A program made the translations under genes and the position numbers. DNA of 64,000 nt. Origin: Erythrobacter donghaensis. Lineage in GTDB: Bacteria; Pseudomonadota; Alphaproteobacteria; Sphingomonadales; Sphingomonadaceae. This document shows, one piece after another, positions 26,343-60,436 of this stretch. Below the pieces are notes generated by a model, which was not told where the DNA came from, ran no database searches, and was given only the letters and a program-made list of their open reading frames with translations. How positions within the stretch are numbered: the first letter of the stretch is position 1; each line of letters opens with the position of its first letter. The stretch spans positions 434,001-498,000 of the forward strand of contig NZ_MUYG01000011.1 in NCBI RefSeq assembly GCF_002155425.1, in the 5' to 3' direction.

Positions 26343-26356
26343 AGGTAGCGCTACCA
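26343..26356. promoter_or_regulatory. LacI-type operator, site 1
   Basis: AGGTAGCGCTACCA, 13 of 14 matches to the ideal TGGTAGCGCTACCA, with a perfect 12-bp palindrome inside. It lies between the divergent semialdehyde dehydrogenase and sugar porter genes and may control both. Confidence 0.85.
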
Positions 26357-27823: not shown

Positions 27824-29347
27824 ATGACTGCACCCGAATCCTCCCCCGTCCGTGTCGTCGTGCTTGGCGGCGGCACGGCGGGGTGGATGACCGCCGCGGG
27901 GATCGCCCGGCTGCTCCCCGGTCTCGCCAGTGTCCAGCTGGTCGAGAGCGAGGAGATCGGCATCGTCGGGGTGGGCGAGGCGACGCTGCCGCACATCCGC
28001 GGCTTTGTCGAACGGCTCGGAATCGACGAGGCAGCCTTCATGAAGGCGACCCACGCGACCTACAAGCTGGGGATCGACTTCCGCGACTTCGGGCGGATCG
28101 GGGAAAGCTACATTCACCCCTTCGGCTCCTTCGGCGAGGAAGTGCAGGGGGTGGGCTTCCACCACTGGTGGCTGGAGCTTGCCCGGCACGGCAAGGCGCG
28201 CGAGATCGGCGACTATTCGCTGGCGGTGGCGGCCGCCAAGGCCAACCGCTTCCGCCCGCCCTCGCAGGATGACAGCCTCGGTTCGACCTATGGCTATGCC
28301 TACCAGTTCGACGCCACCTTGTTCGGCCCCTTCATGCGCGAGTTCGCACGCGGGATCGGGGTGGAGCGGCACGAGGGCCGCGTCGTCACGGTCGAGCGTG
28401 ACGGAGCCAGCGGCGATGTCACCGCGCTGATCCTCGCCGACGGGCGGCGGATCGAAGGCGATCTATTCGTCGATTGCTCGGGCTTCCGCTCGATCCTGCT
28501 TGGGCAGGAATTGGGCGTGGCGTGGGAGGACTGGACCCACTGGCTCCCGTGCGACCGTGCGGCGGCCATGCCCTGCACCCATGCGACCGAAGACCTGCGC
28601 CCCTACACCACCGCCACCGCCATGCCCGCCGGGTGGCGCTGGCAGATCCCGCTCCAGCACCGGATGGGTAACGGCTACGTCTTCTCCAGCGCGCATATCT
28701 CCGAGGAGCAGGCCTGCGAGGCGATCATCGCTGCCGCCGAGGGCACGCCGTTGGCCGATCCTCGCATCCTCAAGTTCCGCCCCGGCCGCCGCGCGCAATC
28801 GTGGAGCCACAATGTCATCGGCGTCGGGCTGGCGAGCGGCTTCCTCGAACCGCTGGAATCCACCTCGATCTATCTCGCGCAGATGGCGATCACCTATCTG
28901 ATCGAGCTGTTCCCCACCACCGGCGCGGTCGACCCGCGCGACCGCGACGAGTTCAACCGGCTGGTCGACATGGAATATGACCGCGTGCGTGATTTCCTGA
29001 TCCTGCACTATCACGCCACCACCCGCGACGATTCCGAGTTCTGGAACCATGTGCGCACGATGCAGGTGCCCGATAGCCTTGCCGGCAAGCTCGAACTGTG
29101 GCGGCGCGCGGGCCGAGTCGAGAAATATTCCGACGGGCTGTTCTACGATGCCAGCTGGATCGCGGTCTATGTCGGACAGGGGATGCTGCCCGAAGCCCAC
29201 GATCCGCGCGCAGCGATGATTGCGCCCGATGCGCTCGCCCGCGCCACCGAACGGCTGCGGATGGCGGTGACCGGCGAGGTTGCGGCCATGCCCGGCCACC
29301 GCGACTATCTGATGCGCGAGGCCGCCCGGCTCGCCGAGGCGGCGTGA
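27824..29347 (+). CDS. Flavin-dependent halogenase-like protein 1 (PrnA family)
   Basis: 507 residues. FAD-binding GGGTAGWMTAA (about 15-25), the catalytic Lys81 in TYKLGIDF, the halogenase marker WRWQIP (271-276) and SGFLEPLESTSIYL, which carries the second active-site Glu, are all intact. These proteins use FADH2, O2 and halide to make a lysine-bound hypohalite that halogenates an aromatic ring. The natural substrate of the receptor-linked branch is unknown, so tryptophan should not be assumed. It starts 25 bp after the sugar porter and overlaps the next gene (GTGA), so it is probably in the same sugar-induced operon. A flavin reductase is not encoded nearby. Confidence 0.9.
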   Translation: MTAPESSPVRVVVLGGGTAGWMTAAGIARLLPGLASVQLVESEEIGIVGVGEATLPHIRGFVERLGIDEAAFMKATHATYKLGIDFRDFGRIGESYIHPFGSFGEEVQGVGFHHWWLELARHGKAREIGDYSLAVAAAKANRFRPPSQDDSLGSTYGYAYQFDATLFGPFMREFARGIGVERHEGRVVTVERDGASGDVTALILADGRRIEGDLFVDCSGFRSILLGQELGVAWEDWTHWLPCDRAAAMPCTHATEDLRPYTTATAMPAGWRWQIPLQHRMGNGYVFSSAHISEEQACEAIIAAAEGTPLADPRILKFRPGRRAQSWSHNVIGVGLASGFLEPLESTSIYLAQMAITYLIELFPTTGAVDPRDRDEFNRLVDMEYDRVRDFLILHYHATTRDDSEFWNHVRTMQVPDSLAGKLELWRRAGRVEKYSDGLFYDASWIAVYVGQGMLPEAHDPRAAMIAPDALARATERLRMAVTGEVAAMPGHRDYLMREAARLAEAA

Positions 29348-30813
29348 GTAACCCGCGCGAGCCGCTGCGCCGCGTCGTCGTGGTCGGCGGCGGCCAGCTT
29401 GGCGTGCTCGCCGCCATCGCGCTGCGCCGCGCGCTTCCGGGTTGCGAGGTGCTGGTGATCGGCACGCCGCCGAGCCCGGCTGCCTTCGCCGATACCGCCG
29501 CCACCGCGATGCCCTTCACCAACAAGCTGCACGATCGGCTGGGGCTGGCCGAGGCCGATATCGTCACCCGCGCCGGGGGCTCCTATCGACTGATCACGCG
29601 GTTTTCCGGATGGGGCGGGCAGGGGCAGGCGGGTGCGGTGGCCTATGGCGAGACGCTCGACCCCGCGCTCAAGACCGCCTTCGCGCGCGATTGGGGCGCG
29701 GTGCGCCTGCCGGGTGCGGGGGCGCCGCCAGTGGGCAGTCTTGCGCAGGTGCTTGCCGAGGCCGGCCGCTTCGCGCCCCCGCCACCGGGCGAGCCAACGC
29801 CGCTGTCGGCTGTCGACTATGCCCTGCGCTGGAATCCGGCAGCCTATCGCGGGCTGCTGATCGACAGTGCCGAGGCGCTCGGGGTCGGCTATGTCGAAGG
29901 CATGATCGACCGGATCGAGCCGGGCGAGGGCGAGGACATTGCCGCGGTCGGGCTGGCGGGCGGAGGGATGATCCCCGCCGATCTGTTTCTCGACTGCTCC
30001 GGCCCCGAGGCCAGTCTGATCGCCGCGCACCCGGCCTTTGCCTTTACCGACTGGTCGGCGAGCCTGCCCACCCGCCGCATCTATTGCAGCCAGCCCGGCG
30101 CGCCGATGGCGGCGCTGGAGGACCGGATCACGCTGACCGGCCTCGGCTGGGTCAGCGAGATCGCGGGGCGGGACGGGTTGCAGATCATGCTCGGCACCCC
30201 GGCCCATGTCCCGCGCGAGGATGCGCTGGCGCTGCTGCGTCTCCCTGCGCGCACGGTGATCGCGCTGACGCCGGGGCGCGCCGAGCGCCCGTGGATCGGC
30301 AATATCATCGCTCTGGGCGATGCCGCTGCGCGGTTCGAGCCGCTGGGGCCGCTGCACCTCGACCTCGCCCACCGCCAGCTCGCGCTGCTGCTCGAGATGC
30401 TGCCGGGCCGCGACATTTCGCCGCTCGAGCGGAAGGAATATAACCGCCGCTCGGGACTGATGATGGAAGGGGTGCGCGAGGTGCTGGCGCTGCACTTTGC
30501 CGGAATCGAAGCCCAGCGCGTGTTCGGCGCGCCGCCTCTGCCGGGCCGGGTGGCGGCAGTGATCGACCAGTTCCTGCGGCGCGGCCGCATCCCCTTTCGC
30601 GAGGAATTGCCCTTGCTGGGGCAGGAGCAGTTCGCGCTGCTGGTGGCGCTCGGCTGGACACCTGGAATGCCGCCCGCCGCGCAGGCCGCCGATGCTGCGG
30701 GCGAAGGCGCGGCGCGCGCCGCGTTCGAGGCCGAAGCCCGCGCCGCACTCGCCTTCGCGCCGCCCTACGATCAATGGTTGTCGCGCGTCGCTAGCCGAGC
30801 ACCTTCCGGATAA
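29344..30813 (+). CDS. Diverged halogenase paralogue lacking active-site motifs
   Basis: 489 residues from a GTG overlapping the previous stop. The fold is still that of the neighbouring halogenases (FAD motif, LFLDCSGPEASLIA, NIIALGDAAARFEPLGPLHL, LERKEYNRRSGLMMEGVREV), but key residues are changed: the FAD motif reads GGGQLGVLAA instead of GGGTAGW, the catalytic Lys is Arg82 (SYRLITRF), WxWxIP is missing, and EPLEST is EPLGPL. It can hardly work as a halogenase; it may be a partner protein or bind flavin for another reaction. Its 3' end overlaps the convergent cupin gene by 23 bp. Confidence 0.8.
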   Translation: MSNPREPLRRVVVVGGGQLGVLAAIALRRALPGCEVLVIGTPPSPAAFADTAATAMPFTNKLHDRLGLAEADIVTRAGGSYRLITRFSGWGGQGQAGAVAYGETLDPALKTAFARDWGAVRLPGAGAPPVGSLAQVLAEAGRFAPPPPGEPTPLSAVDYALRWNPAAYRGLLIDSAEALGVGYVEGMIDRIEPGEGEDIAAVGLAGGGMIPADLFLDCSGPEASLIAAHPAFAFTDWSASLPTRRIYCSQPGAPMAALEDRITLTGLGWVSEIAGRDGLQIMLGTPAHVPREDALALLRLPARTVIALTPGRAERPWIGNIIALGDAAARFEPLGPLHLDLAHRQLALLLEMLPGRDISPLERKEYNRRSGLMMEGVREVLALHFAGIEAQRVFGAPPLPGRVAAVIDQFLRRGRIPFREELPLLGQEQFALLVALGWTPGMPPAAQAADAAGEGAARAAFEAEARAALAFAPPYDQWLSRVASRAPSG

Positions 30814-31813
30814 AATCGCGCATCGCCGCGAGGTTCTCGCGCGAAGGCGGGCCGAGGACGCCCTTTGCCTGCGCCGGCAGATGCGCGCCCGGATCGCCTT
30901 CGGCGCCGAAGACATAGTAATCGAGCAGCCCCCGCCACACGGCGCGCTGATCGTCGGGCATATGGCGGAAGGCGAACATCGCGTGCATCAGCGCATCATA
31001 GGGGCTGCCGATCCCCTCGGGGCAGTCGGGTGTCCACCAGTAATTGACGAGGATACTGACGGACTCGAGCGATTCCACCCCGTGCCACCAGCCATAGGGA
31101 ATGTAGATCGCATCGCCCGGCTCCAGCGTCCCGGTGCTGGCATGCTGCGCTGCCTCGGCAAAGCGCGGATATTTTTCCAGATCGGGCGCGTGCGGATCGA
31201 CCATGCTGACCGGCACGCCCGCCGGGGTCACTTCGAAAGGGCCGGGATAGAGCGCGGCGATCTGGTCGGGCGGATAGAGCGTGAAGCGCCGCCGGCCGGC
31301 GACGCAGCAGGCCACATTGGCCTTGGCGTCCCAATGTGTGCCGACGCGGATGCGGTTGCCGATCCAGATGCGCGCTCGAACATCGGGCAGTGCCGCCAGC
31401 CGGTTCTCGCGCGCGAAGGCGGGGAGCAGGTCGTCGATCATTTCCGACTGCACCGCCATCGCGGGGGGATCGGGCATGGCCGCCGCACGCAGCAGATCGG
31501 CAAGGAAGGTCTCCAGCCGCCCGTTCCCCCGCACGAAATTCAGCTTCGTGGCGTCGGGCGTATAGAAGAACCGCCCCTGCTCGGATGGCGCAGCGGCGAT
31601 CGCTCCGACGGGGCGCGTGGTCGGCTCGCGGCCGAGATAGGCGATTATCGTTTCATCGCCTTGCCGCGCCGCCGCAACCGCGGGCCAATCGGCGACAAGG
31701 CCGCGTAGCACAACCGGTTGCCCTTCCGCCCGAAGCGATGCGAGCCCCGCCTCCGTGAGCGGGCCTGCGATCTCCTTCATCGGAGCGGGCGGTGGGAGCG
31801 CGGCGGCGGTCAC
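30791..31813 (-). CDS. Cupin-8/JmjC-like protein (Pass1-type)
   Basis: 340 residues. A double-stranded beta-helix with the iron-site pattern HWDAKANVACCVAGRRRFTL (HxD) and a distal His in YIPYGWWHGVESL; FTLYPPDQ and VNYWWTPD are typical of cupin-like domain 8 hydroxylases. These are 2-oxoglutarate and Fe(II) oxygenases. Genes of this type recur next to PrnA-like halogenases and TonB receptors in alphaproteobacteria and xanthomonads. It is the last gene of the leftward operon, overlapping the upstream halogenase by 4 bp. The substrate is unknown; hydroxylation of a protein or small molecule is inference. Confidence 0.82.
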   Translation of the reverse strand: MTAAALPPPAPMKEIAGPLTEAGLASLRAEGQPVVLRGLVADWPAVAAARQGDETIIAYLGREPTTRPVGAIAAAPSEQGRFFYTPDATKLNFVRGNGRLETFLADLLRAAAMPDPPAMAVQSEMIDDLLPAFARENRLAALPDVRARIWIGNRIRVGTHWDAKANVACCVAGRRRFTLYPPDQIAALYPGPFEVTPAGVPVSMVDPHAPDLEKYPRFAEAAQHASTGTLEPGDAIYIPYGWWHGVESLESVSILVNYWWTPDCPEGIGSPYDALMHAMFAFRHMPDDQRAVWRGLLDYYVFGAEGDPGAHLPAQAKGVLGPPSRENLAAMRDFIRKVLG

Positions 31814-33348
31814 GCGGTCAGGTGCTCGGCCGCGGCAATTGCTCCGCCGTTCTGGCGCAGGAACTCCGCCTGCGTCGGCAATTGTTGGGCCGTCTGGGCG
31901 ATCACCCCGCGGATATGCGCCAGCCGCTGGCGGGTTTCAGCCTCGTCGAGCATCCACGCCGCCGGGTGATACCCTTGAGGCGTCACGCCTTGCGACAGCA
32001 TCACCGACAGCCAGCTGTCTTCGGTGAACAGCTCGTTGTTCTCGCGGATGATCCGGCCCGAGGAGCGGAACATGTCCAGCTTTTCGGCAAGCCCCTCGGG
32101 CGCTTCAAGATGGCGGCAATAGCGCCAGAATTCCGAATCGTCGCGCTCGCTCGCGCGGTAGTGGAGCACCAGAAAATCGCGGATGTTGATATATTCGCGC
32201 TCCGTTTCGGCGTTGAAGCGGTCGCGTTCCACCGCGCCAAAGCCCGTGTCGGGGAACAGCGCGAGCAGCCGCGCGATGCCGGATTGCACGAGGTGGATCG
32301 AGGTCGATTCGAGCGGTTCGAGAAAGCCCGCCGCCAGCCCCAGCGCCACCACGTTCTTGTCCCACGCCCGCGCCCGGTGCCCGGCCTTGAACGCCAGATG
32401 ATTGGGATCGGCCAGCGGCGCGCCGTCGAGATTGGCGAGCAGCAGATCGGTCGCCGCCTGCCGGTCGATATGGGCGGAGGAAAAGACGTGGCCATTGCCG
32501 ATCCGGTGCTGGAGCGGGATGCGCCATTGCCAGCCTGCGGTTCGCGCGGTCGAGCGGGTGAGCGGCTCGTTCGCCCCGCCCAGCGTGCAGGGGATGGCGA
32601 CCGCGCTGTCGCAGGGCAGCCACTTGCTCCAGTCGGTGAAAGGCACGCCCAAGGTCTGCCCGAGCAGCAGCGAGCGGAAGCCCGAACAGTCGATGAACAA
32701 TTCGCCCGCCACTTCGCGTCCGTCTTCCAGCGTTACGCCGGTGACAAAGCCGCTTTCACCGTCCTGCGCGACAGAGACGACCCGCCCCTCGACCCGCACC
32801 GCGCCCGCGCTTTCCGCATAACCGCGCAGGAAGCGGGCATAGCGGCCCGCATCGAACTGGAAGGCGTAGCTGAGCTTCGACAGCGGCGATTTGGGCTGGT
32901 CGGGCCGCGGCCAGGCGAAACGCCCCGCCTTGCCCGCGACCGCCGCGATCGAATAATCGTCGATCCGCGAGCTATCGCCCACCTCTTGCCCGCGCAGCCA
33001 GAAATGCTGGAATTCGATCCCCAGCATGTCGATCCCGAAGCTGCCGAAAGGGTGGACATAAGAGTGCCCGGGCCGCAGCCAGTCGACGAATTCGATGCCG
33101 AGTTTGTAGGTCGCGCGGGTCTCGCGCATGAAGGTCATCTCGTCGAGGCCGAGCAGGCGGTTGAAGCCGATGATCTGCGGGATGGTCGCCTCGCCCACGC
33201 CGACCGTGCCGATCGCCTCGCTCTCGATCAGGGTCACAGAAAGGCCGGGCATCTGGCCGAGCACGCGCACCATCGCGGCCGCCGTCATCCACCCGGCGGT
33301 GCCGCCGCCGACGATGACGATCTTGGTGACGGGCGGAGCTGCGCTCAT
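31810..33348 (-). CDS. Flavin-dependent halogenase-like protein 2 (PrnA family)
   Basis: 512 residues. Intact FAD motif IVIVGGGTAGWMTAA, catalytic Lys82 in TYKLGIEFVDW, marker WQWRIP in TAGWQWRIPLQHRIGNGHVF and AGFLEPLESTSIHL. All residues expected for hypohalite formation are therefore present. It overlaps the start region of the cupin gene and the stop of the upstream halogenase by 4 bp each, forming a tight three-gene operon. It is closer to halogenase 3 than to halogenase 1 by shared phrases such as GEATIPQI / GEATIPPI. The substrate is unknown. Confidence 0.9.
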   Translation of the reverse strand: MSAAPPVTKIVIVGGGTAGWMTAAAMVRVLGQMPGLSVTLIESEAIGTVGVGEATIPQIIGFNRLLGLDEMTFMRETRATYKLGIEFVDWLRPGHSYVHPFGSFGIDMLGIEFQHFWLRGQEVGDSSRIDDYSIAAVAGKAGRFAWPRPDQPKSPLSKLSYAFQFDAGRYARFLRGYAESAGAVRVEGRVVSVAQDGESGFVTGVTLEDGREVAGELFIDCSGFRSLLLGQTLGVPFTDWSKWLPCDSAVAIPCTLGGANEPLTRSTARTAGWQWRIPLQHRIGNGHVFSSAHIDRQAATDLLLANLDGAPLADPNHLAFKAGHRARAWDKNVVALGLAAGFLEPLESTSIHLVQSGIARLLALFPDTGFGAVERDRFNAETEREYINIRDFLVLHYRASERDDSEFWRYCRHLEAPEGLAEKLDMFRSSGRIIRENNELFTEDSWLSVMLSQGVTPQGYHPAAWMLDEAETRQRLAHIRGVIAQTAQQLPTQAEFLRQNGGAIAAAEHLTA

Positions 33349-34904
33349 GCGACCGCCGCCTCAGCGGCCAAATGCCAGCTGCCCGACTGGCGCAGGAAAT
33401 CGCCATGCCCGGGCAGGCGCGCGGCAACATCGGCATAGGCCGCGCGCATCTGGGCCATCGCGGCGGCGACCTTGTCGGGATCGAGCGTGTCGGCGATGGG
33501 ATCATGCGCCTCGGGCCAGATGTTCTGCCCCAGCATCACCGCGACCCAGCTCGGCAGGCTGAACAGCTCGGCATTCTCGCGGAACACGCGGCCGCGGTGC
33601 TGCCACAGCGCGATCTTGCGTGCGAGACTGTCGGGCACCTCCATGTGCTTGACGTAACGCCAGAACTCGGAGTCCTCGCGCTGCGTCGCCTTGTAGTGGA
33701 GGATCACGAAATCGCGCACGTCCTGATACAGCTCGTGCATCCCGCGATTATACTCGTCGCGCTCCAGCGGGCTGATCGGCAGGTCGGGGAACAGCGCGAA
33801 CAGGCGCTGGATGCCGTTCTGGATGAGGTGGATCGAGGTCGATTCGAGCGGCTCGATAAAGCCTGAGGACAGGCCGAGCGCGACGACATTGTGGTTCCAC
33901 GCCTTGCGCCGCATGCCGGTGAGGAATTTCAGCCCGCGCGGTTCGGCCAGCGGCTCGGTTTCGAGGTTCGCGAGCAGGATACGCCGCGCCTCGTCCTCGT
34001 CCATGAAAGCGCTCGAATAGACGTGCCCGTTGCCGGTGCGGTGCTGCAACGGGATGCGCCATTGCCACCCGGCGCTGTGCGCGGTGGCGCGGGTGAAGGG
34101 ATCGGGCGGGCCGGGCGAGCGCGAGGGGACGGCGAGCGCGCGATCCATTGGCAGCCATCGGCTCCAGTCCTCGTATCCGGTTTCCAGCGCTTCCTCGATC
34201 AGCAACCCGCGAAAGCCCGAACAGTCGATGAAGAGATCGCCCGCAACGGTCGCGCCGCTTGCCAGCGTGACGCTGGCGACATCGCCCGTCTCGCCGTCGC
34301 GGGTGACGTTGGTGATCGTGCCTTCGATCCGCACCGCGCCCTGCCGTTCGGCGAGGCGGCGCAGATAGGCGGCATAGAGCCCCGCGTCGAAATGATAGGC
34401 ATAGGCGATCTCGCGCACCACCGACTGCGCGCCTGCTGCGGGGCGGGCGAAGCGGCCCGCGGCGGCGGCTGCGGTGCTCATCGAATAGGCGCCGATCGGG
34501 CCTGCCCCCGCAGTGCCCGAGCGCGCCTGTTCGCGCAGCCACAGCTGGTGGAAGGCGATGCCGTGCAGGTCCTGGCCATAGGTGCCGAAGGGGTGGAAAT
34601 AGCGGTCGCCCTGCTGGCCCCAGTTGACGAATTCGATCCCCAGCTTGCAGGTGCCGCGGGTTTCGCGCAGGAATTCGGCCTCGGGAATGTCGAGCATGGC
34701 GTTGAAGCTGCGGATCGGCGGAATGGTCGCCTCGCCCACGCCGACCGTGCCGATCGCGTCGGATTCGATCAGCGTGACCGTCCGGCGGCCATCGTCGAAG
34801 AACCGCGACAAAGCGGCCGCCGCCATCCATCCGGCGGTGCCACCGCCGACGATCACGACCCGCGCAAGGCGGCTTACGTTACCGATACCATGGCCCCTCA
34901 TCAT
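33345..34904 (-). CDS. Flavin-dependent halogenase-like protein 3 (PrnA family)
   Basis: 519 residues (the first 10-15 may not be translated; the FAD motif VVIVGGGTAGWMAAA starts at residue 16). Catalytic Lys87 in TCKLGIEFVNW, WQWRIP in SAGWQWRIPLQHRTGNGHVY and SGFIEPLESTSIHL are all intact. It is the first gene of the leftward operon with halogenase 2 and the cupin, divergent from the xylan TonB receptor. An operator of the xylose regulon lies in the shared promoter region, so sugar control is likely. The substrate is unknown. Confidence 0.9.
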   Translation of the reverse strand: MMRGHGIGNVSRLARVVIVGGGTAGWMAAAALSRFFDDGRRTVTLIESDAIGTVGVGEATIPPIRSFNAMLDIPEAEFLRETRGTCKLGIEFVNWGQQGDRYFHPFGTYGQDLHGIAFHQLWLREQARSGTAGAGPIGAYSMSTAAAAAGRFARPAAGAQSVVREIAYAYHFDAGLYAAYLRRLAERQGAVRIEGTITNVTRDGETGDVASVTLASGATVAGDLFIDCSGFRGLLIEEALETGYEDWSRWLPMDRALAVPSRSPGPPDPFTRATAHSAGWQWRIPLQHRTGNGHVYSSAFMDEDEARRILLANLETEPLAEPRGLKFLTGMRRKAWNHNVVALGLSSGFIEPLESTSIHLIQNGIQRLFALFPDLPISPLERDEYNRGMHELYQDVRDFVILHYKATQREDSEFWRYVKHMEVPDSLARKIALWQHRGRVFRENAELFSLPSWVAVMLGQNIWPEAHDPIADTLDPDKVAAAMAQMRAAYADVAARLPGHGDFLRQSGSWHLAAEAAVA

Positions 34905-35043: not shown

Positions 35044-35057
35044 TGATAGCGCTAACA
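35044..35057. promoter_or_regulatory. LacI-type operator, site 2
   Basis: TGATAGCGCTAACA, 12 of 14 matches to TGGTAGCGCTACCA. It is 15 bp before the receptor ATG, close to its ribosome site, and 140 bp before the halogenase 3 start. This position would block the receptor transcript near its start. Confidence 0.8.
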
Positions 35058-35071
35058 TGGGGAGGGATCTT

Positions 35072-38000
35072 ATGCGCATCGCGATGCAGCACCGTGTCGT
35101 TCAGGCTGGGGGCCAGAGCGGCTGGTTGAAGGGGGCCTTGCGCGCCGGGGCTTCGGTGCTGGTGGTCAGCAGTGCGCTGAGTGGTCAGCTGGCCGCCGCG
35201 CAGGATGCCGAGCAGCCGGACCCTGATGTCGAGGATGCGGCTCCCGCCGAAGACGCCAACGTCAACGAGATCCTCGTCACCGGCCTGCGTGCTTCGCTCG
35301 CCAACGCCCAGAACCTCAAGAAGAACTCCGACACCGTGGTTGACGCGATCACCGCGCAGGATATCGGCGCGCTGCCCGACCGTTCGGTGACCGAAGCGCT
35401 CCAGCGCGTGCCCGGCATCGCCATCAACCGCTTCGCCGGTTCGAACGATCCCGACCACTTCTCGGTCGAAGGTTCGGGCGTCGTGATTCGCGGTCTCAAC
35501 TTCGTGCGTTCGGAATTCAACGGTCGCACCGCCTTTTCCTCGGGCGTGGGCGGGCAGGCGCTGAACTTTGCCGACGTGCCCGCCGAACTGCTCGGCTCGG
35601 TGGTGATCAGCAAGAACTCCACGGCAGAGATGATTGAAGGGGGCCTTGCGGGCACGGTCAATCTCAACACCCGCAAGCCGTTCGACAATAACGGCCTCAA
35701 GATCGCGTTCAGCGCCGAGGCGAACTATGGCGATTTCCGCAAGGAATGGACGCCGACGCTTTCAGGCCTGATCAGCAACACCTGGGACACCGACAAGGGG
35801 CGCTTCGGCCTGCTGGCGAGTGCTTCCTACTCGCGCATCAAGAGCCGTGCTGACGGTCTTCAGGTCGCCAACTATCAGACGCGCGACGGTCAGCTGGTGA
35901 ACGCTGCCAACACCGATGGTGTGCTGGTGTGCCGCAATCCCTTGCCGAGCAGTGTGGACAACTTCACCTTGCCGCCGGGCGGATCGCTTTGCGGCAATTT
36001 CGGCGCGGCGGGCGCCGATGGCTTCGCCGATTACGCCGCCTCGCGCGTGGCACCGGTCGGCGGGCAGTTCCGCACGCAGGAATTCGACCGTGAACGCAAC
36101 GGCCTCGCGGTCTCGGCCCAGTTCGAATCGATCGACGAGAAGACCGTGATCACCGCGGAATTCATCCGCTCGGCCTCGACCAACAAGTGGGGCGAATACA
36201 CCTACGAAACCGCCCCCGATCAGGCGGAATACAACACCTATCCGATTGGCTGCCAGCAGAACGGCAATGGCCCCAACGTGATCAACCCCGGCGGTGCGCT
36301 GGGCGATCCCACCGCGCGCGCGCAGTGCCCGGTCGGCGGATTCACCGATTACATCTACAACGACACCGGGCTGTTCCAGTCGGGCTATATCGTCAACGCC
36401 AACAATGGCTGGCGCGGGCCGGTCAACAATTTCGATCCCCGCCCGGCGGGTATCGATGGCGATGGCAACGCGTTCGGCGGCGGGTCGCCCTTCGTGCCGA
36501 TCGGCGGCTTGCAGCAGTCGCTCGCGCGGCGACAGGTCGATGACCGGATCACCAACGAGGATTACTCGCTCAACCTCAAGACCGAGCTGACCGATCGCCT
36601 CTCGCTGCGGCTCGACGCGCAATATGCCACATCGCGCAAGCAGAACCTCGATTTCAGCGTGTTCGGTTCGATCTTCGCCGATCAGGAGCTCGACATTTCC
36701 GGCGATCTGCCGGTCATCGTGCCGCGCAAGCCGCAGTTCCTGGGCTACAACTGGTCGACCCCGAGCGATGCGCTGGGCAGCGCGACCGAAGAGCAGTATT
36801 TCAGCGATCCGCGCTTCCAGTTCTGGCGCGCGGCGATGGACCACATCGAGGATTCGACCGGCAAGCAATATGCCTTCCAGGCCGACATGGCCTACGAGTT
36901 CGACGACGATTCCTTCATTCGCCGGGCAAAGTGGGGCGCGCGCTATCAGGACCGTGACCAGACGGTGCGCTACACCACCTATAACTGGGGGATGCTGAGC
37001 GAGGTGTGGTCCGGCTCGCGCCCGACCAACTTCGCCGATACGCCCGCAGAGCTTTCGGAACGCTACGAATTCCCCAACTTCTTCCGCGGTCAGGTCGCCG
37101 GGCCTCCGGGCGGGTTCTACTACAGCGGCGATCTGATCGGTGACTATGAGGGCGCGATTGCCGACTTCCAGTCGGTGCAGGATGTCTCGCGCACTTTCGG
37201 CAGCTCGCCGAACTGGGTGCCGCTGTCAGGGCGGCAAGGTGCCATCGCGGGGACGCCCTATCTGCGCGAGGATATCCAGCCGCTGACGCAGCAGGACGCC
37301 GCGGCCTATCTCCAGCTCGATTTCGGCGCGGATGATATTTTCGGCTCGTCGATGCGCATTTCGGGCAATATCGGCGTGCGCTATGTCGACACCCGGGTGC
37401 GGTCCGAAGGCTTCCTCGGCGTGCCGAGCCAGCAGGCGCTGGGGATTAACCAGCCGTTCTTCAACGTGGTCAATCCGAACACGGGCGAAATCATCACGCC
37501 CGGCCGCTGCGAGGCGGGCGTGCCCGACGGTGCGCCTCCCGGAACGCCGCCGACCACGCCGGGCGGGGTCTGCAACCTCGGGCCGCAGGGCTATGCCGAT
37601 CTCCAGCAGTTCGCCGGGACCGGGACAGCCGATGGCGGTCAGCGCAGCGTGGCGGACACGAATTACGACTTCTGGCTGCCCAGCTTCAACCTCAAGCTTG
37701 GCGTGACCGAGGACGTGATCTTCCGGTTCGCAGCATCGAAGGTGCTGACGCGGCCGGACAATGCCAATATCCGCAACTTCCTGAACATCGGCCTTGAGGG
37801 CAGCGAGCTGACCGCGACCGCGGGCAACCCGTTCCTCAGGCCGGCCACCGCCTGGCAGTTTGACCTCACCGCCGAATGGTACTTCGACACGGTCGGATCG
37901 CTGACCTTCAACGCCTTCTACAAGGATGTGAAGGACTTCTTCTTCCAGGACATCTTCTCGCGGCAGATCACCAGCAACGGGATCACCAAGGAAGTGCTGG

Positions 38001-38551
38001 TCCGCGGTCCGGCCAACTTCGAGGACAACGGCAAGATCAAGGGCTTCGAGCTGGCCTACCAGCAGACCTACGACTTCCTGCCCAAGCCGCTCGATGGCCT
38101 GGGGATCGCGGCCAACTACACCTATATCGAGAGCAAGGGGCTGCCGAACACCTTCCTCAACACCGGAGAGCCGGTCGACCAGTCCACCGTGCCGCCGGGC
38201 AACCTCCCGCTCGAGCAGCTGTCGAAGCACAACGTCAATGCGACGGTGTTCTACGAAAAGGGGCCGATCAGCATGCGTGCCGCCTACAACTGGCGCTCGC
38301 GCTTCCTGCTGACCCCGGCGGACGTGATCTTCCCGTACTATTCGATCTTCAACGAATCGACCGGGCAGCTCGATGCGTCGATCTTCTTCAACGTCACCGA
38401 CCAGATCCGTGTCGGGGTGCAGGGGGTGAACCTGCTCAACGAGGTGACCCGCACCACGCAGGCCTATACCGGCGATCCGGACGTGCTGGCTCCACGCTCG
38501 TTCTTCATGAACGACCGGCGCTTCTCTTTCATCGTCAGAGGCAACTTCTAA
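35072..38551 (+). CDS. TonB-dependent receptor, probable xylo-oligosaccharide uptake
   Basis: 1159 residues from the ATG at 35072, preceded by GGGGAGGGA. A long signal peptide (GASVLVVSSALSGQLAAAQ), an acidic stretch, then the TonB-box-like NEILVTGLRASLANAQNLKK and a plug domain with ALPDRSVTEALQRVPGIAI. The rest is a 22-strand-type barrel ending in Phe (FSFIVRGNF). It belongs to the large carbohydrate-receptor type seen in Caulobacter and sphingomonads. Its place in the xylan regulon points to xylo-oligosaccharides as cargo; that is inference. A strong terminator follows. Confidence 0.93.
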   Translation: MRIAMQHRVVQAGGQSGWLKGALRAGASVLVVSSALSGQLAAAQDAEQPDPDVEDAAPAEDANVNEILVTGLRASLANAQNLKKNSDTVVDAITAQDIGALPDRSVTEALQRVPGIAINRFAGSNDPDHFSVEGSGVVIRGLNFVRSEFNGRTAFSSGVGGQALNFADVPAELLGSVVISKNSTAEMIEGGLAGTVNLNTRKPFDNNGLKIAFSAEANYGDFRKEWTPTLSGLISNTWDTDKGRFGLLASASYSRIKSRADGLQVANYQTRDGQLVNAANTDGVLVCRNPLPSSVDNFTLPPGGSLCGNFGAAGADGFADYAASRVAPVGGQFRTQEFDRERNGLAVSAQFESIDEKTVITAEFIRSASTNKWGEYTYETAPDQAEYNTYPIGCQQNGNGPNVINPGGALGDPTARAQCPVGGFTDYIYNDTGLFQSGYIVNANNGWRGPVNNFDPRPAGIDGDGNAFGGGSPFVPIGGLQQSLARRQVDDRITNEDYSLNLKTELTDRLSLRLDAQYATSRKQNLDFSVFGSIFADQELDISGDLPVIVPRKPQFLGYNWSTPSDALGSATEEQYFSDPRFQFWRAAMDHIEDSTGKQYAFQADMAYEFDDDSFIRRAKWGARYQDRDQTVRYTTYNWGMLSEVWSGSRPTNFADTPAELSERYEFPNFFRGQVAGPPGGFYYSGDLIGDYEGAIADFQSVQDVSRTFGSSPNWVPLSGRQGAIAGTPYLREDIQPLTQQDAAAYLQLDFGADDIFGSSMRISGNIGVRYVDTRVRSEGFLGVPSQQALGINQPFFNVVNPNTGEIITPGRCEAGVPDGAPPGTPPTTPGGVCNLGPQGYADLQQFAGTGTADGGQRSVADTNYDFWLPSFNLKLGVTEDVIFRFAASKVLTRPDNANIRNFLNIGLEGSELTATAGNPFLRPATAWQFDLTAEWYFDTVGSLTFNAFYKDVKDFFFQDIFSRQITSNGITKEVLVRGPANFEDNGKIKGFELAYQQTYDFLPKPLDGLGIAANYTYIESKGLPNTFLNTGEPVDQSTVPPGNLPLEQLSKHNVNATVFYEKGPISMRAAYNWRSRFLLTPADVIFPYYSIFNESTGQLDASIFFNVTDQIRVGVQGVNLLNEVTRTTQAYTGDPDVLAPRSFFMNDRRFSFIVRGNF

Positions 38552-38713: not shown

Positions 38714-39934
38714 TCAGCCGGCAGCAGCCATGACATTGGCCAGCGCCGTGCGAAGCGGCTTGGCGCGGTATTGGGAATCATAGGGTGTGCCGCGCACTTC
38801 CTGCCCGTCGGCGCGCTTCGCGGGATCGAAGCCCTGCAACCAGTTGAACCGGTCAACCATGCCCCAGGCGAGCACATCGCCCAGATGCGCGTTGTATTCG
38901 AGCATCAGTTCGAAATAGCGCCGCGCGAAGTCCGCCACCTTCTCGTCGCGCTGGGCGATGTTGGCGGGGAGCGCCTTGTCCTTCACGTCGAATTCGGTGA
39001 TCAGCAGGCGGTAGCCCATGCCGGTCACTTCATCGAGGAAGGCGCGCCATTCGCGCTCCGCATAGGGCCCGACGCCATTGGCGGGATCGATCGCGAAGAT
39101 CTCGATATGCGACTGGATCCCCAGCGCATCGACCGGGGTGCCGCGCTTCCTGAGGCCTTCCAGCAGGCGCAGCACGTCCGCGCAGTGGCGCTGATGCTGC
39201 GGCTCCCAGCTCATGTAGTCGTTGTAGACCAGCTGCGCGTCCGGCAGTTCGGCGCGCGCGGTGTGGAAGGCGAGGTCGAGCACGGCTTCGGGGCTGCCCA
39301 TCGCGCGGCTCATGCTGGTCTCGATCGGGGCGTTGCGATCATGGTCGATCGCCTCATTGACCACGTCGTAAGAGGTTATCACGCCCTTGTAGCGGCGGGT
39401 GACGGTCTGGATATGCTCGGTCAGCAGGCGCTCGGCCTCCTGCACCGGATTGGCGCCATAGTCATAGGTGTTGAGCCAGTTGGGGAACCACTGCGGGCGG
39501 TGCCACAGCAGGGTGTGGCCGCGCACCGCCACCCCTTCGCGCTGCGCCCAGCCGACGATCTCGTCCATCCGGTCGAAATTGTAGGCGGTGGGCGAGGGGC
39601 GGACGGCCTGCCACTTCATCTCGTTCTCGGGCACGACGATGCCGCACTCGCCCTTGACGATGGCGGTGTAGGCCGGGTTCTGGACCGACCCGGCATTGGT
39701 GTTGCCCGGGGTCGAAGCAATGGCGCTGCCGAACTTGCGCCCACCGCGCGCGGCGATGGTGTTGAGGCCGGGCTGCGGCACGCCTGTGGGGCCGGCGCTG
39801 GGCGGGGGCGGGGGAGGGCTGGCGACGGGTGCGGGCGTCGTCCCCGACGATCCGCCGCCGCAGCCGACCAGCGGCAATGCGGCGATCCCGGCGAGCGCGG
39901 CGCGGCGCGAGAGGGTGAAGGTCTTGGGGTCCAT
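38714..39934 (-). CDS. GH10 endo-1,4-beta-xylanase, lipoprotein
   Basis: 406 residues from the ATG one base after the stop of the upstream GH3 gene. The N-terminus SRRAALAGIAALPLVGC combines a twin-Arg pair with a lipobox (Cys25), so a Tat-exported lipoprotein is likely. A Pro-rich linker (about 35-55) leads to a GH10 barrel: VPENEMKWQAV, HTLLWHRPQWFPNW, acid/base Glu194 in YDVVNEAIDHD and nucleophile Glu314 in RLLITEFDVKD. It cleaves the xylan backbone at the cell surface or in the periplasm. It is the last gene of its operon. Confidence 0.94.
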   Translation of the reverse strand: MDPKTFTLSRRAALAGIAALPLVGCGGGSSGTTPAPVASPPPPPPSAGPTGVPQPGLNTIAARGGRKFGSAIASTPGNTNAGSVQNPAYTAIVKGECGIVVPENEMKWQAVRPSPTAYNFDRMDEIVGWAQREGVAVRGHTLLWHRPQWFPNWLNTYDYGANPVQEAERLLTEHIQTVTRRYKGVITSYDVVNEAIDHDRNAPIETSMSRAMGSPEAVLDLAFHTARAELPDAQLVYNDYMSWEPQHQRHCADVLRLLEGLRKRGTPVDALGIQSHIEIFAIDPANGVGPYAEREWRAFLDEVTGMGYRLLITEFDVKDKALPANIAQRDEKVADFARRYFELMLEYNAHLGDVLAWGMVDRFNWLQGFDPAKRADGQEVRGTPYDSQYRAKPLRTALANVMAAAG

Positions 39935-39935
39935 G

Positions 39936-42323
39936 TCAGATGATCTCCACGTCGAGCGGGGCAAGGCTGGCCGAGCTGCTCCCCGCCCACAGCCGCAATG
40001 GGCCGGGCGGATTGGTCTCGGTGAGGGTGTCGTCCCACACCGCCAGATGGCGTGCGGGGATGGTGAAGGTGAGGGTGCGGCTCTCGCCCGGCTGGAGCGT
40101 GACGCGCTGGAAGCCCTTCAGCTCCAGCACCGGGCGCGTGACCGACAGGCCGGTGCGGGTGATGTAGAGCTGCACCACCTCGTCGCCGCTGCGCGCGCCG
40201 GTGTTGGTGACCGTGACTTCGGCGCGGACATCCTCCTCACGGCCAAAGCGCGGCTTGGCGGTGCGCGGGGCGGAGATGGCGAAGCTAGTGTAGCTGAGCC
40301 CATGGCCGAAGGGGAACAGCGGGGCCGCGTCGTCGAACAGATAGCCGCGCCGCGCGGAGGGCTTGTGGTTGTAGAACAGCGGGATCTGGCCGGTATTGCG
40401 CACCACGCTGACGGGCAGCTTCGCGCCGGGGTTGATGTCCCCCAGCAGCGCCTCGGCGACGGCCTGTCCGCCTTCCTGCCCCGGATACCAGCATTCCAGC
40501 ACGGCATCGGCCTTGGCGACCACGTTGGGCCAGCTGGGCGGGCGGCCATTGTAGGCGGCGACAATCAGCGGCTTGCCCAGCGCCGCCAGCGCATCGACCA
40601 GTTCGTTTTGTTCGCCGATGATGTCGATCCCGGTGCGGTCACCGAGGTGGTTCTTGGCAAAGCCCTCGCGGCTGGTCTGCTCGGTGTCGCCGATTGCGAG
40701 GATGATCGTGTCGGCACCGCGTGCGACCTCCACCGCCTGCGCGATCAGCCGCAGGTTCTCGGCACGGTCGGCGAGCGTGATCTCGTCGGCCGAACGGTCT
40801 TCGCTGGTGGTGATGAACACGCCTTGCGCGGTGATGAAGTCGGCCTCCGGTGCGACCATGCGCAGCCCTTCGATCAGGCTGACGGTCTGGTTGGGCACGC
40901 TCGAATAGCCGCCAAGGCGGGCGATGGCATGGTTGGGGCCGATCACCGCGACGCGGCCCATCGTGGCCCGGTTCAGCGGCAGCGCACCGTTATTGGTAAG
41001 CAAGCACACGCCCTTGCGCGCCGCCTCTAGCGCCAGCGCGCGGGCCTCGTTGTTGCCGGTGATGCGTTCCGCCAACGCGGCATCGCCATAGGGGTTCTCA
41101 AACAGCCCGCAGCGGAACTTGAGGGCGAGCATTTGCGCGCAGGCGGTGTCGACAAGGCTCTGCGGGATGCGGCCCGCGCGCACGGCATCAGGCAGGGTGG
41201 CGAAGGCCAGCCCCTCGGGCAGTTCGCTGTCCACACCCGCCAGCAGCGCCTGATGCGCCGCATCCTCCAGATCGCGCGCGACATGGTGCAGCGTCGCCAA
41301 CTCGTGCACGCCGCCGTAATCGCTGGCGATGATCCCGTCGAAGCCCCATTCTCCGCGCAGCACCTCGCCCAGCAGCCAGACATTGGCGTGGGAGGGCACC
41401 CCATCGATCTCGTTGTAGCTCGGCATCACCGCGCCGACAGAACAGCGCTGCACGACCTCGCGGAACGGGGGGAAGAAATTCTCGCGCAGCTCGCGCTCGG
41501 AAATCTGCGCGGGCGCAACATTGTTGCCGCTTTCCGGCTGACCGTGACCGGTCATGTGCTTGAGCGTTGCGAAGACCTTGCCATCGCCAAGGCGTTCGAA
41601 CTTGCCCGGCCCTTGCAGACCCTCGACTGCCGCGACCGCCATTTCGGCGGCAAGGTAGGGGTCTTCGCCCCAGGTCTCCTCGATCCGCCCCCAGCGCGGA
41701 TCGCGCACGATATCGACCACGGGCGAAAGCACCAGCGGCACGCCGCGCGCGCGCACCTCGCGGGCGATCTGGCCTTGCACCCGGCGCATCAGATCGGTGT
41801 CGAAACTGCCCGCGAGCGCTATCGCCTGCGGGAACATAGTGGCCTCGGTCGCCATGTAGCCGTGGAGCGATTCCTCGTGCAGCAGCACGGGGATGCCGAG
41901 GCGGGTGTCCTCCAGCGCCCAGCGTTGCAGCGCGTTGATAAACGCCACGGTTTCGGCAGGGGTGCGCCAGCGCGCCGCCGTGCCGCCCGCCGCGCCGGTG
42001 ATGCCGGGCACGCCGCGCTTGTCGCTGGGGCGGGTGACGTGGCCGATCCCGTCGGGGAAGGCGGCGCTGGCCTTTTTCGGATTGAAGGCCAGATCGTCGA
42101 TCATGTCACCCTTCGCCGCCCATGCGGTGCGGATCTGCGCGACCTTCTCCTCCAGCGTCATGCGCGCCATCAGGTCGGCGACCCGCAGCGGGATGGGGGC
42201 GGCGGCGTCCTTGTAGATCAGGCGATCCTGTGCCGCCCATGCCGCCGGGCCCGATCCCAGCGCCAGCGCAGCGAGGCTGCCACCCGCCATCAGGCGCAGC
42301 GCATGACGGCGGGAGAGGTTCAC
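39936..42323 (-). CDS. GH3 beta-xylosidase/beta-glucosidase A
   Basis: 795 residues from a GTG at 42323 that overlaps the upstream stop (GTGA); from this start the protein begins with a Tat signal, LSRRHALRLMAGGSLAALAL, cut near AWA-A. GH3 N-terminal barrel with LMARMTLEEKVAQI, HMTGHGQPESG and the nucleophile Asp in IIASDYGG, then the alpha/beta sandwich and a fibronectin-type end (LELKGFQRVTLQPGESRTL). It would release xylose from xylo-oligosaccharides in the periplasm. It is a close paralogue of the next gene. Exact specificity within GH3 is uncertain. Confidence 0.9.
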   Translation of the reverse strand: MNLSRRHALRLMAGGSLAALALGSGPAAWAAQDRLIYKDAAAPIPLRVADLMARMTLEEKVAQIRTAWAAKGDMIDDLAFNPKKASAAFPDGIGHVTRPSDKRGVPGITGAAGGTAARWRTPAETVAFINALQRWALEDTRLGIPVLLHEESLHGYMATEATMFPQAIALAGSFDTDLMRRVQGQIAREVRARGVPLVLSPVVDIVRDPRWGRIEETWGEDPYLAAEMAVAAVEGLQGPGKFERLGDGKVFATLKHMTGHGQPESGNNVAPAQISERELRENFFPPFREVVQRCSVGAVMPSYNEIDGVPSHANVWLLGEVLRGEWGFDGIIASDYGGVHELATLHHVARDLEDAAHQALLAGVDSELPEGLAFATLPDAVRAGRIPQSLVDTACAQMLALKFRCGLFENPYGDAALAERITGNNEARALALEAARKGVCLLTNNGALPLNRATMGRVAVIGPNHAIARLGGYSSVPNQTVSLIEGLRMVAPEADFITAQGVFITTSEDRSADEITLADRAENLRLIAQAVEVARGADTIILAIGDTEQTSREGFAKNHLGDRTGIDIIGEQNELVDALAALGKPLIVAAYNGRPPSWPNVVAKADAVLECWYPGQEGGQAVAEALLGDINPGAKLPVSVVRNTGQIPLFYNHKPSARRGYLFDDAAPLFPFGHGLSYTSFAISAPRTAKPRFGREEDVRAEVTVTNTGARSGDEVVQLYITRTGLSVTRPVLELKGFQRVTLQPGESRTLTFTIPARHLAVWDDTLTETNPPGPLRLWAGSSSASLAPLDVEII

Positions 42324-44728: not shown

Positions 44729-44774
44729 GCTATGTCCCTCTCCCTGCACGGCCGCTTGACTGTCGCCATGTTTG

Positions 44775-44788
44775 TGGTAGCGCTACCA
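44775..44788. promoter_or_regulatory. LacI-type operator, site 3 (perfect)
   Basis: TGGTAGCGCTACCA, a perfect 14-bp palindrome and the best of the six sites. It is 47 bp before the GH3 B start and about 135 bp before the divergent LacI-family gene. A half-site (TGGTAGCGGGT) at 44852 lies nearer the regulator gene. Confidence 0.9.
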
Positions 44789-44921
44789 TGATGAGAGGGA
44801 GAGGGCTTGTCAACCGGCTTGCGATCATGGCCGCTGGGTCACAGGGGGCGATGGTAGCGGGTCTCACCGCGGCTACGAACGCGCTTGCTGACACTCGGCT
44901 CGTCGCAGTATGGCGGGTGGC

Positions 44922-46046
44922 ATGAGCACCAAGGCCGAAACCCTCGCCCCGCCCGCCACCTCCGGCCGCAAGCGCGCCGCCCGGCGCAGCAACGCCGCGC
45001 CCACCATCACCGATGTCGCCAAGGAGGCGCAATGTTCGCCGATGACGGTGAGCCGCGTGATCAACGGCGAGGAGAACGTGCGCGAGGACACCAAGCAGAA
45101 GGTCCTGGGCGCGATCGCCAAGCTCAATTACGTCCCCAACCGCGCGGCACGCTCGCTCGCGGCGGGATCGCAGCTGCGTATCGCGCTATTGTTCGACAAC
45201 CCCTCGGCCTCCTACCTCAGCGAATTCCTGATGGGCGCGCTGGAAGAAGCCAGCCGTCGCGACATCTATCTGGTGGTGCAGGCCTGCGAGAACGTGGCCG
45301 ACGCGCAGAAGGTGATCAAGAAACTGCTCGATGGCGGGATCGAAGGCTTCATCCTCCCCCCGCCGCTGTGCGACGACCAGAGCGTGCTCGATCTGATCCG
45401 CTCATCCGGCGGGATCGCGGTTGCGGTCGGGCCGGGTCGCGCGACGGGCAGCCACGGCGCGGTGCTGATCGACGAGTTTCAGGCCGCCTACGACATGACC
45501 CGGCACATCATCGGGCTGGGTCATGAACGCATCGGCTTCATCATCGGCAACCCCGATCAGGTCGCCTCGGGCCGCCGCCTGCTGGGCTATCGCTCGGCGA
45601 TGAAGGATGCCGGGCTGACCATCGACGAAGGCCTGATCGCGCAGGGCCAGTTCACTTACCGTTCGGGCATGGTCGCGGCAGAGAAGCTGCTGGGCGCTGC
45701 CAAGCCGCCGACCGCGATCTTCGCCTCGAACGACGACATGGCCGCCGCCACTGTCGCCATGGCGCACCGTCGCCATCTCGACGTGCCCAACGATATCACC
45801 GTCTGCGGCTTCGACGATACCGAGCTTGCCAGTTCGATCTGGCCCGAGCTCACCACCATCCGCCAGCCGATCCGCGAGATGACCGCCGAGGCTGTCGCCA
45901 TGATCGCGCGCGTCCACAAGCAGAAGGGCCGCACCGCGCGCGCCAAGCCCGAACAGCTGACGCTCGCCTACCAGCTGATCCGCCGCAATTCCGACGCGGG
46001 GCCCAGCCTCGCCTCCTCTTTCAGCAAACCACCCGGGAATACATGA
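44922..46046 (+). CDS. LacI family regulator of the xylan/xylose genes
   Basis: 374 residues from the ATG at 44922 (44910 is also possible; neither has a strong ribosome site). The N-terminus is basic, then the LacI helix-turn-helix TITDVAKEAQCSPMTVSRVI and the hinge LNYVPNRAARSLAAGSQ (about 55-72), followed by a periplasmic-binding-like sensor domain with ERIGFIIGNPDQVASGRRL and ICGFDDTELAS-type phrases. It most likely binds the six operators and is released by xylose or a derivative, as in Caulobacter XylR. Its end overlaps xylD (ATGA), so regulator and enzyme are co-translated. Confidence 0.9.
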   Translation: MSTKAETLAPPATSGRKRAARRSNAAPTITDVAKEAQCSPMTVSRVINGEENVREDTKQKVLGAIAKLNYVPNRAARSLAAGSQLRIALLFDNPSASYLSEFLMGALEEASRRDIYLVVQACENVADAQKVIKKLLDGGIEGFILPPPLCDDQSVLDLIRSSGGIAVAVGPGRATGSHGAVLIDEFQAAYDMTRHIIGLGHERIGFIIGNPDQVASGRRLLGYRSAMKDAGLTIDEGLIAQGQFTYRSGMVAAEKLLGAAKPPTAIFASNDDMAAATVAMAHRRHLDVPNDITVCGFDDTELASSIWPELTTIRQPIREMTAEAVAMIARVHKQKGRTARAKPEQLTLAYQLIRRNSDAGPSLASSFSKPPGNT

Positions 46047-53729: not shown

Positions 53730-53743
53730 TGATAGCGCTACCA
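53730..53743. promoter_or_regulatory. LacI-type operator, site 4
   Basis: TGATAGCGCTACCA, 13 of 14 matches. It lies in the 88-bp gap between divergent xylX and GH43 genes, so it can control both. Confidence 0.87.
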
Positions 53744-53795
53744 TAAGAGCACAATGGCGGGCCGACAAGCCCCCAAAAACACGGGAGGAGAGGCG

Positions 53796-60264: not shown

Positions 60265-60278
60265 TGCTAACGCTAACA
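60265..60278. promoter_or_regulatory. LacI-type operator, site 5
   Basis: TGCTAACGCTAACA, 11 of 14 matches, with both half-sites in TAAC/GCTAA form. It is 44 bp before the GH3 C start. Confidence 0.72.
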
Positions 60279-60422: not shown

Positions 60423-60436
60423 TGATAGCGATACCA
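60423..60436. promoter_or_regulatory. LacI-type operator, site 6
   Basis: TGATAGCGATACCA, 12 of 14 matches. It lies in the same 249-bp gap as site 5, 158 bp centre to centre, close to 15 helical turns, and 35 bp past the NUDIX stop. It could act as an auxiliary site for looping. Confidence 0.7.

Follow-up and report, generated by a model that had tools for sequence, protein, structure and literature searches.

The nearest relatives of known structure of the enzymes considered here are BrvH (6FRL) and Xcc4156 (6Y1W), for which an open active site and larger or peptide substrates have been proposed (PMC5945002; PMC7336383). A second halogenase gene has been described upstream of brvH. What BrvH-type halogenases act on in nature has been described as unknown (PMC7336383). 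BrvH and Xcc4156 have been studied as single enzymes. In contrast, in the stretch of DNA analyzed here, 64,000 nucleotides of Erythrobacter donghaensis (contig NZ_MUYG01000011.1, positions 434,001 to 498,000; hereafter the window, located on contig C3 in a genome of 3.37 Mb), three halogenase-like proteins with putatively active sites (W1, W3, and W4), a pseudoenzyme (psi), and a cupin_8 protein form a conserved block linked to a TonB-dependent receptor.

Tryptophan held in a longer chain is the substrate of several enzymes to which the block can be compared. MibH (5UAO), a PF04820-type halogenase, acts on a Trp-bearing lanthipeptide and not on free Trp (PMC8269204). The flavoprotein monooxygenase QhpG introduces two hydroxyl groups into a peptidyl Trp of a protein whose gene shares its operon (PMC7876137). 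Together with LodB and GoxB, it belongs to the flavoproteins needed for Trp modification in a partner protein. W1, W3, and W4 are likewise flavin-enzyme-like, and their matches fall below the cut-offs of these models: 23-31 bits against 240 for QhpG, and 22 bits against 400 for LodB, which is matched by W4 alone. Thus, the three proteins possibly work in a similar way without being members of these families. QhpG hydroxylates a quinone-cofactor precursor, whereas W1, W3, and W4 carry PrnA-type halogenase motifs and their protein substrate is a proposal.

The genomic setting also has precedents. Carbohydrate utilization (CUT) loci of Xanthomonas, Caulobacter, and sphingomonads bring a TonB receptor, a sugar porter, a regulator, and degrading enzymes together in one regulated locus (PMC1790865). 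The block of halogenases, psi, and cupin_8 protein is an addition to this plan; the word halogenase is absent from the main text of that report. In passages of an oil-spill metatranscriptome study, halogenase and TonB genes are not linked in one locus (PMC11337851). The literature searched, mostly open-licence and therefore weak evidence of absence, yielded, by title, no report on halogenases in TonB, xylan, or polysaccharide utilization loci, and none of a halogenase pseudoenzyme. Halogenase-like genes beside TonB receptors are known from work on Xanthomonas and Caulobacter. Judged by sequence, psi is a pseudoenzyme, W1, W3, and W4 are of a known family, and the whole is a new form of a known kind of locus.

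The halogenase block and its link to the receptor

The block occupies positions 27824-34904, between a sugar porter of the major facilitator superfamily (MFS; PF00083; 26425-27798, plus strand, with a longer open reading frame from 26215) and the TonB-dependent receptor (35072-38551, plus strand), within a xylan locus of glycoside hydrolase (GH) families GH10, GH3, and GH43. Its genes form two facing operons. The first, MFS-W1-psi, runs on the plus strand, with W1 at 27824-29347 and psi at 29344-30813. The second, W4-W3-cupin_8, runs on the minus strand divergent to the receptor, with W4 at 33345-34904, W3 at 31810-33348, and the cupin_8 gene at 30791-31813. Overlaps of 4 bases join W1 to psi, W4 to W3, and W3 to cupin_8; MFS and W1 are spaced by 25 bp, and the gap to the receptor is 167 bp.

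W1, W3, and W4 give full-length matches to the Pfam Trp_halogenase profile (PF04820) far above its cut-off of 21 bits, with 595, 621, and 644 bits, respectively; psi scores 172. All three carry GGGTAGW, in which the GxGxxG motif for flavin adenine dinucleotide (FAD) is present, the catalytic Lys motif (TYKLG in W1 and W3, TCKLG in W4), and the WxWxIP motif (GWRWQIP in W1, GWQWRIP in W3 and W4). W3 aligns over nearly its whole length with BrvH and Xcc4156 (E 4e-153 and 2e-151), shares their FAD, Lys, and WxWxIP motifs, and places its Lys opposite that of BrvH. By profile and motif, the three proteins are members of the PrnA-type flavin-dependent halogenase family. An alignment of 371 distinct homologues, from which sequences shorter than 330 residues and identical sequences had been removed, contains 305 that keep the Lys and WxW. 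In these, the Lys, both Trp of GWxW, and the Glu of an EPL motif are conserved at 100%; the Lys and WxW were the sorting criteria, and the Glu was not. This invariance speaks for catalysis. The sequence-only reading, which had placed three intact PrnA-family proteins, a degenerate paralogue, and a cupin-8 protein between the porter and the receptor, is thus borne out by the open reading frames, Pfam scores, and motifs. The N-termini of W1, W3, and W4 start almost directly at the FAD motif and show by eye no export signal, so the enzymes should act in the cytoplasm.

The receptor, and not the sugar, is the constant companion of these halogenases. Genes of this type are common: PF04820 is matched at E 1e-20, once or more, in 88 of 149 genomes of the family. 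A receptor of this clade was found at E 1e-60 in 50 genomes, and 49 of these also have PF04820 at 1e-20, compared with 39 of the 99 others (Fisher 8e-14, uncorrected for relatedness; both genes in 49 genomes, receptor alone in 1, halogenase alone in 39, neither in 60). The 50 genomes hold 64 merged loci of the receptor clade. A PF04820 match lies within 600 bp of the aligned part in 57 loci, a remnant in genome G058 included, and within 2.2 kb in 61; the other three are two loci of one genus and one short contig. Since the count took all listed receptor pieces and most PF04820 matches, omissions can only lower it. G058 is the sole receptor-only genome, in which a receptor fragment (a frame of 565 amino acids) and a 70-position halogenase remnant lie 92 bp apart (L191, C1 about 1290719-1292591). 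This arrangement suggests joint decay of the two genes.

Other halogenase loci of the family point the same way. In a sample of 83 loci, counted by six-frame profile searches because gene calling fails in low-GC genomes (L024, L025), a TonB receptor is present in 75. The sample consists of the window, two further loci of the same genome, 20 regions with several matches or from the same genus, and 60 loci among the best-scoring matches listed, so that its shares of single- and multiple-gene loci are not unbiased. In the genome of E. donghaensis itself, all three halogenase loci adjoin a receptor, and 29 of the 32 receptors have no adjacent halogenase. Five receptors of this genome, that of the window among them, score above the TIGR01782 cut-off, and these five include all three that are linked to halogenases. 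The second halogenase locus (L014) is a starch locus with two GH13 genes, LacI, a TonB receptor, and a DUF6445 protein, and the third (L015) is a beta-glucan locus with GH16, GH3, LacI, MFS, and a TonB receptor. Starch and beta-glucan are polymers without ferulate. As halogenase loci for xylan, starch, and beta-glucan occur in one genome, their shared element is the receptor and not an aromatic decoration of the sugar.

A conserved pseudo-halogenase paired with W1

In psi, the Lys motif is replaced by SYRLI and GWxWxIP by GWVSE. The structural model of psi (pLDDT, a per-residue confidence score, 83.7) nevertheless predicts a full halogenase fold, with a TM score of 0.86 to BrvH chain A. Because Arg stands for the catalytic Lys and WxWxIP is lost, psi is filed as a pseudoenzyme derived from the halogenase family and not as a halogenase. 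Among the 371 homologues, 66 do not keep the Lys and WxW, and 64 of these were taken as psi; L137, with one odd residue, and L115, with a shortened frame, were set aside. The 64 fall into two pure clades, of 59 (support 0.886) and 5 (support 0.965) sequences. Arg occupies the Lys column in 64% of them, and a G-D-A motif (D in 62%) stands where active enzymes show G-L-S/A. Three Caulobacter variants (L157, L160, and L166) keep the Lys and have GWLRRxP for GWxWxIP, possibly representing an early stage of the loss.

The pairing of psi with one type of active enzyme is strict. The psi gene lies directly 3′ of an active halogenase on the same strand in 62 of 64 cases; the two exceptions reflect the choice of frame (L031, where W1 ends where psi begins) and a contig end (L166). 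The active 5′ partners, 61 distinct sequences, belong to one clade of 63 (support 0.966). The two additional members of this clade, W1 of L031 and W1 of L019, are also followed by psi, which in L019 is short and highly diverged (89 bits). Loci L109-L188 were retrieved with psi as the query and are biased towards it; 27 of the 63 clade genes come from loci outside that set. As L192-L195 were chosen for weak beside strong PF04820 matches, 23 genes were chosen without regard to psi. Within the 83-locus sample, loci whose receptor falls in a high-score group, defined by a cut-off of our own, have psi in 20 of 21 cases with at least two active halogenases (L019 counted) and in 0 of 23 cases with one.

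The psi gene is under purifying selection. In one genome pair, the comparison with Porphyrobacter sp. SLTP, the ratio of nonsynonymous to synonymous substitution rates (dN/dS) is 0.21 for psi; the active halogenases have values of 0.12-0.16, the receptor has 0.18, and the cupin_8 gene has 0.26. Ten psi orthologues are 48-63% identical to psi over the full length, and the closest named psi, from Porphyrobacter sp. SLTP, is 78% identical. A decaying pseudogene was rejected on account of these full-length orthologues, the dN/dS value, the open frame, and the predicted intact fold. The label of degenerate paralogue therefore holds for the active site and fails for the gene, which is conserved; the earlier reading had not recognized this fourth paralogue as a pseudoenzyme that is maintained and pairs with W1.

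Conservation and shared operators of the xylan locus

The comparison across sphingomonads that the sequence-only reading had proposed was run, and it shows the block to be conserved in 15 relatives. MFS, W1, psi, W3, W4, and the receptor all recur in L020, L029-L037, and L109-L113, the last five from Porphyrobacter sp. SLTP, an uncultured Sphingomonadaceae bacterium, Qipengyuania marisflavi, Alteraurantiacibacter aestuarii, and an Erythrobacter metagenome-assembled genome. The MFS homologue is cut by the end of the retrieved DNA in three loci. Thirteen of the 15 also carry a cupin_8 gene; a profile search found none in L111 and L113. The gene order varies, with the MFS-W1-psi operon inverted in L036. 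In the first ten of these (L020 and L029-L037), W1 is 74-84% identical to its counterpart in the window, W3 67-80%, W4 67-78%, the receptor 51-71%, the cupin_8 protein 53-67%, and psi 47-65%. Related blocks of lower identity occur in L022, L023, L028, and L038. Given this recurrence, the set of four paralogues in one such locus is not special to this genome.

Two records titled Arthrobacter sp. (L123) and Bacillus sp. (L169) carry a sphingomonad-type block of receptor, halogenase, and psi, and are probably mislabelled or contaminated. Another arrangement, of a halogenase, a cupin, and a different receptor type, occurs in L196, L197, L064, and L086. SapC matches accompany it in L196, L197, and L064; the SapC search did not cover the genome of L086. 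SapC was rejected as a component of the present block because it belongs to that other arrangement in the family, and the single match of the E. donghaensis genome lies elsewhere (C3 at 890976).

Operator-like palindromes tie the block to the xylan genes. The window contains 7 copies of the relaxed form, GNTANCGNTANC, where 0.12 would be expected, and none of 100 shuffles reaches 7. The strict form, GNTAGCGCTANC, has 6 places in the whole genome, 4 of them in the window. Since the strict pattern read backwards has 36 genome places, the strict genome count alone is no test of enrichment, and the window shuffles and conservation serve instead. The strict sites of the window precede MFS, the receptor, the LacI gene, and GH43. 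The first, a LacI-type operator (GGTAGCGCTACC, 26344-26355), heads the MFS-W1-psi operon. The second (GATAGCGCTAAC, 35045-35056) belongs to the divergent W4/receptor promoter, lies 15 bp upstream of the start codon of the receptor gene, and is joined by an operator-like site over the 5′ end of W4 (GTTACCGATACC, 34878-34889). The third (GGTAGCGCTACC, 44776-44787) lies between a GH3 gene and the LacI gene, and the fourth (GATAGCGCTACC, 53731-53742) before GH43.

Conservation across relatives is stronger evidence for these operators than the counts. In the divergent W4/receptor promoter, a site and an equivalent second site near the W4 start are found in 15 of 15 syntenic relatives. The site heading the MFS operon is kept, about 70-125 bp before the aligned MFS start, in all 12 relatives whose retrieved DNA extends far enough. 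Control loci (L201-L230) contain 2 sites in 166,588 bp. Operators at both outer ends of the cluster, as the sequence-only reading had proposed, are thereby confirmed, and the conserved operator-like sites argue strongly for the predicted co-control with the xylan genes. The LacI-family regulator encoded at 44910-46046 (plus strand) is their presumed reader. Two relaxed operator-like sites (60266-60277 and 60424-60435) lie upstream of a GH3 gene at 57693-60221. Outside the window, strict sites occur at L016:8691, near a second EDD-type dehydratase (60% identical), and at L017:9299, there without the outer T and A.

Downstream of the receptor, the minus strand encodes a GH10 xylanase-family protein (38714-39964) and two GH3 proteins (a, 39936-42425; b, 42320-44749, next to the third operator), and GH43 is encoded at 53754-55442 on the plus strand. 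Further neighbors are an IlvD/EDD dehydratase, an aldose epimerase, and a SASA esterase. An FAA_hydrolase-family gene at 52583-53707 is grouped with gluconolactonase-like, SDR, and EDD-type genes, a grouping that resembles those of oxidative pentose pathways. The FAA_hydrolase family has members in aromatic catabolism. With a TonB receptor, an inner-membrane sugar porter, glycosidases, a LacI regulator, and shared operator-like sites, the locus has the makeup of a CUT locus, putatively controlled by LacI.

Candidate substrates of the block

The open pockets of the nearest relatives, the nature of the cupin_8 protein, and the precedent of QhpG make modification of the receptor before export the reading rated most likely. 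In its general form, a receptor-linked oxidative modification module, in which a flavin- and 2-oxoglutarate-dependent system modifies the neighboring receptor in the cytoplasm and psi is the partner of W1, it is held tentatively, with somewhat less than even confidence. On xylan medium, the LacI-type repressor would leave its operators, and the receptor, both halogenase operons, and the xylanases would be made together, as the conserved sites suggest. W1, W3, and W4, as cytoplasmic enzymes of the open-pocket BrvH/Xcc4156 kind, would act on a protein and not on a free metabolite. Their most likely target would be the neighboring TonB receptor, still unfolded in the cytoplasm. As a non-catalytic partner made in register with W1, psi would probably form a W1-psi heteromer that recognizes the receptor, and the FIH/JMJD5-like protein would contribute further oxidation. 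The analysis demonstrates the motifs and gene content, the synteny and operators, the linkage to the receptor, the pairing of W1 with psi, and the selection on psi; the action on a protein, the receptor as that protein, the modified residues, the heteromer, and the type of chemistry, which may be halogenation or hydroxylation, are proposals beyond this. A more specific form is rather unlikely to hold in full: a dedicated post-translational modification of TonB-dependent sugar receptors, in which an obligate W1-psi pair, further halogenases, and an oxygenase would halogenate or hydroxylate conserved loop tryptophans before export.

The cupin_8 protein (209 bits to cupin_8) is a candidate 2-oxoglutarate/Fe(II) protein hydroxylase of the FIH/JMJD5 type. 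The top solved-structure matches of the cupin_8 profile are FIH (E about 1e-22) and JMJD5 (about 1e-19). The HxD...H triad is common to these enzymes and the cupin_8 protein, in which H160, D162, and H244 are invariant in 9 of 9 sequences; the match covers mainly the core, and use of 2-oxoglutarate is a prediction here. FIH and JMJD5 hydroxylate proteins. In the starch locus, the DUF6445 protein encoded between halogenase and receptor (L014:7807-8781, minus strand) shows by eye an HxD...H...R arrangement, the pattern of 2-oxoglutarate oxygenases, and no relative of it was found in the PDB at E 0.1.

Within the receptor, W639 and W646 are the candidate modification sites and the first residues to consider, in what may be an outward loop. 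They emerged from a contrast of 129 halogenase-linked with 34 unlinked receptors (30 from genomes without PF04820 at 1e-20, two from the E. donghaensis genome, and L189 and L190); the remaining unlinked receptors were excluded, as their stretches contain a halogenase at a greater distance. Among 73 linked receptors of this clade, 83 columns are at least 98.5% conserved. Eight of these columns are at most 15% conserved in the 34 unlinked receptors, and two of the eight are W639 and W646. All 73 linked receptors of this clade show the pair (W-x6-W) at identical columns; of the 34 unlinked receptors, two, L189 and L190, have W-x6-W anywhere in the protein. These two, from genomes G043 and G123 of one genus, belong to a wider receptor clade, and their genomes carry 7 and 9 halogenase genes elsewhere. 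The receptor model, which is weak (mean pLDDT 63, with a poor plug), puts the pair at the base of a long segment between strands 616-634 and 735-753. The alternation of short and long connections suggests that the W639-W646 loop is extracellular.

Several observations weigh against modification of the receptor. The contrast is confounded by phylogeny, as the linked receptors of this type group in a single clade of 75 (support 0.98). The unlinked L189 and L190 keep the Trp pair, most other linked receptors lack W-x6-W (12 of 56 have it), and in another linked clade, of 27 receptors, the invariant Trp is a different one. Stacking on sugar may by itself explain why loop tryptophans are conserved in a sugar receptor. 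No receptor is seen in the retrieved DNA of 8 of the 83 sampled halogenase loci. L072, L144, and L174, each with at least two active halogenases and with a receptor from the high-score group, lack psi; the reverse exceptions, L194 and L195, combine one active gene with psi. No flavin reductase family was found among the proteins scanned in 20.7-61.6 kb, and cytoplasmic halogenation before export would be unusual.

A different proposal is that the enzymes modify a small aromatic other than ferulate, such as an indole or phenol serving as a signal, pigment, or defence compound upon receptor induction, with the receptor as a co-regulated neighbor only. In vitro, free indole is indeed a substrate of Xcc4156 and, at a slow rate, of BrvH (PMC5945002; PMC7336383). 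The 39 of 149 genomes that have halogenases without a receptor of this clade also favor it and speak against a receptor target, though many sampled loci hold another TonB receptor type. However, a small-molecule pathway needs no place beside 61 of 64 clade receptors, nor beside receptors for three sugars in one genome. Further, it leaves psi unexplained, and no evident biosynthetic partner genes were found among the proteins scanned. We consider this proposal unlikely.

That the enzymes act on another protein or glycan of the locus, such as a secreted glycosidase or a lipoprotein, or bind the receptor like a chaperone without catalysis, is distinctly improbable. Several glycosidases share the regulon with the receptor, and psi points to a fold that survives loss of the catalytic Lys. 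Yet the glycosidases differ among the loci compared while receptor and halogenase stay, and the invariant Lys, GWxW Trp, and EPL Glu of the 305 active homologues argue for catalysis over a chaperone role. A precursor peptide of the kind served by MibH, which acts in the making of a peptide natural product, was rejected: 4-base overlaps and gaps of 25 bp and 167 bp leave little room for a precursor gene in the window block, where no systematic search for small open reading frames was made.

Action on polymer-borne aromatics, for example ferulate on arabinoxylan, is very improbable: the xylan enzymes and SASA-type esterase, the operators that tie the cluster to the locus, and the nearby FAA_hydrolase-family gene, albeit in oxidative-pentose-like company, are in its favor, but enzymes of this kind also stand beside the starch and beta-glucan receptors of this genome, the constant neighbor is the receptor and not the sugar, and no feruloyl-esterase family match was found among 20 neighboring proteins scanned at 20.7-61.6 kb, the left third of the window being outside the annotation. 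The sequence-only reading had offered aromatic groups of plant polymers and the receptor itself as possible targets. As a general role, the former is not supported, the starch and beta-glucan loci arguing against it; the latter fits better, since this receptor clade and the halogenases are rarely apart across genomes and sugars, an association and not a proof.

For receptor modification, the near-fixed receptor link, the strict W1-psi pairing, and the named Trp pair narrow the substrate question, and the receptor is the first thing to test as a target of the halogenases. Should the receptor prove to be the substrate, its modification would be of a kind new for outer-membrane proteins. If true, the reading would give the native substrate of the whole BrvH/Xcc4156 halogenase group.

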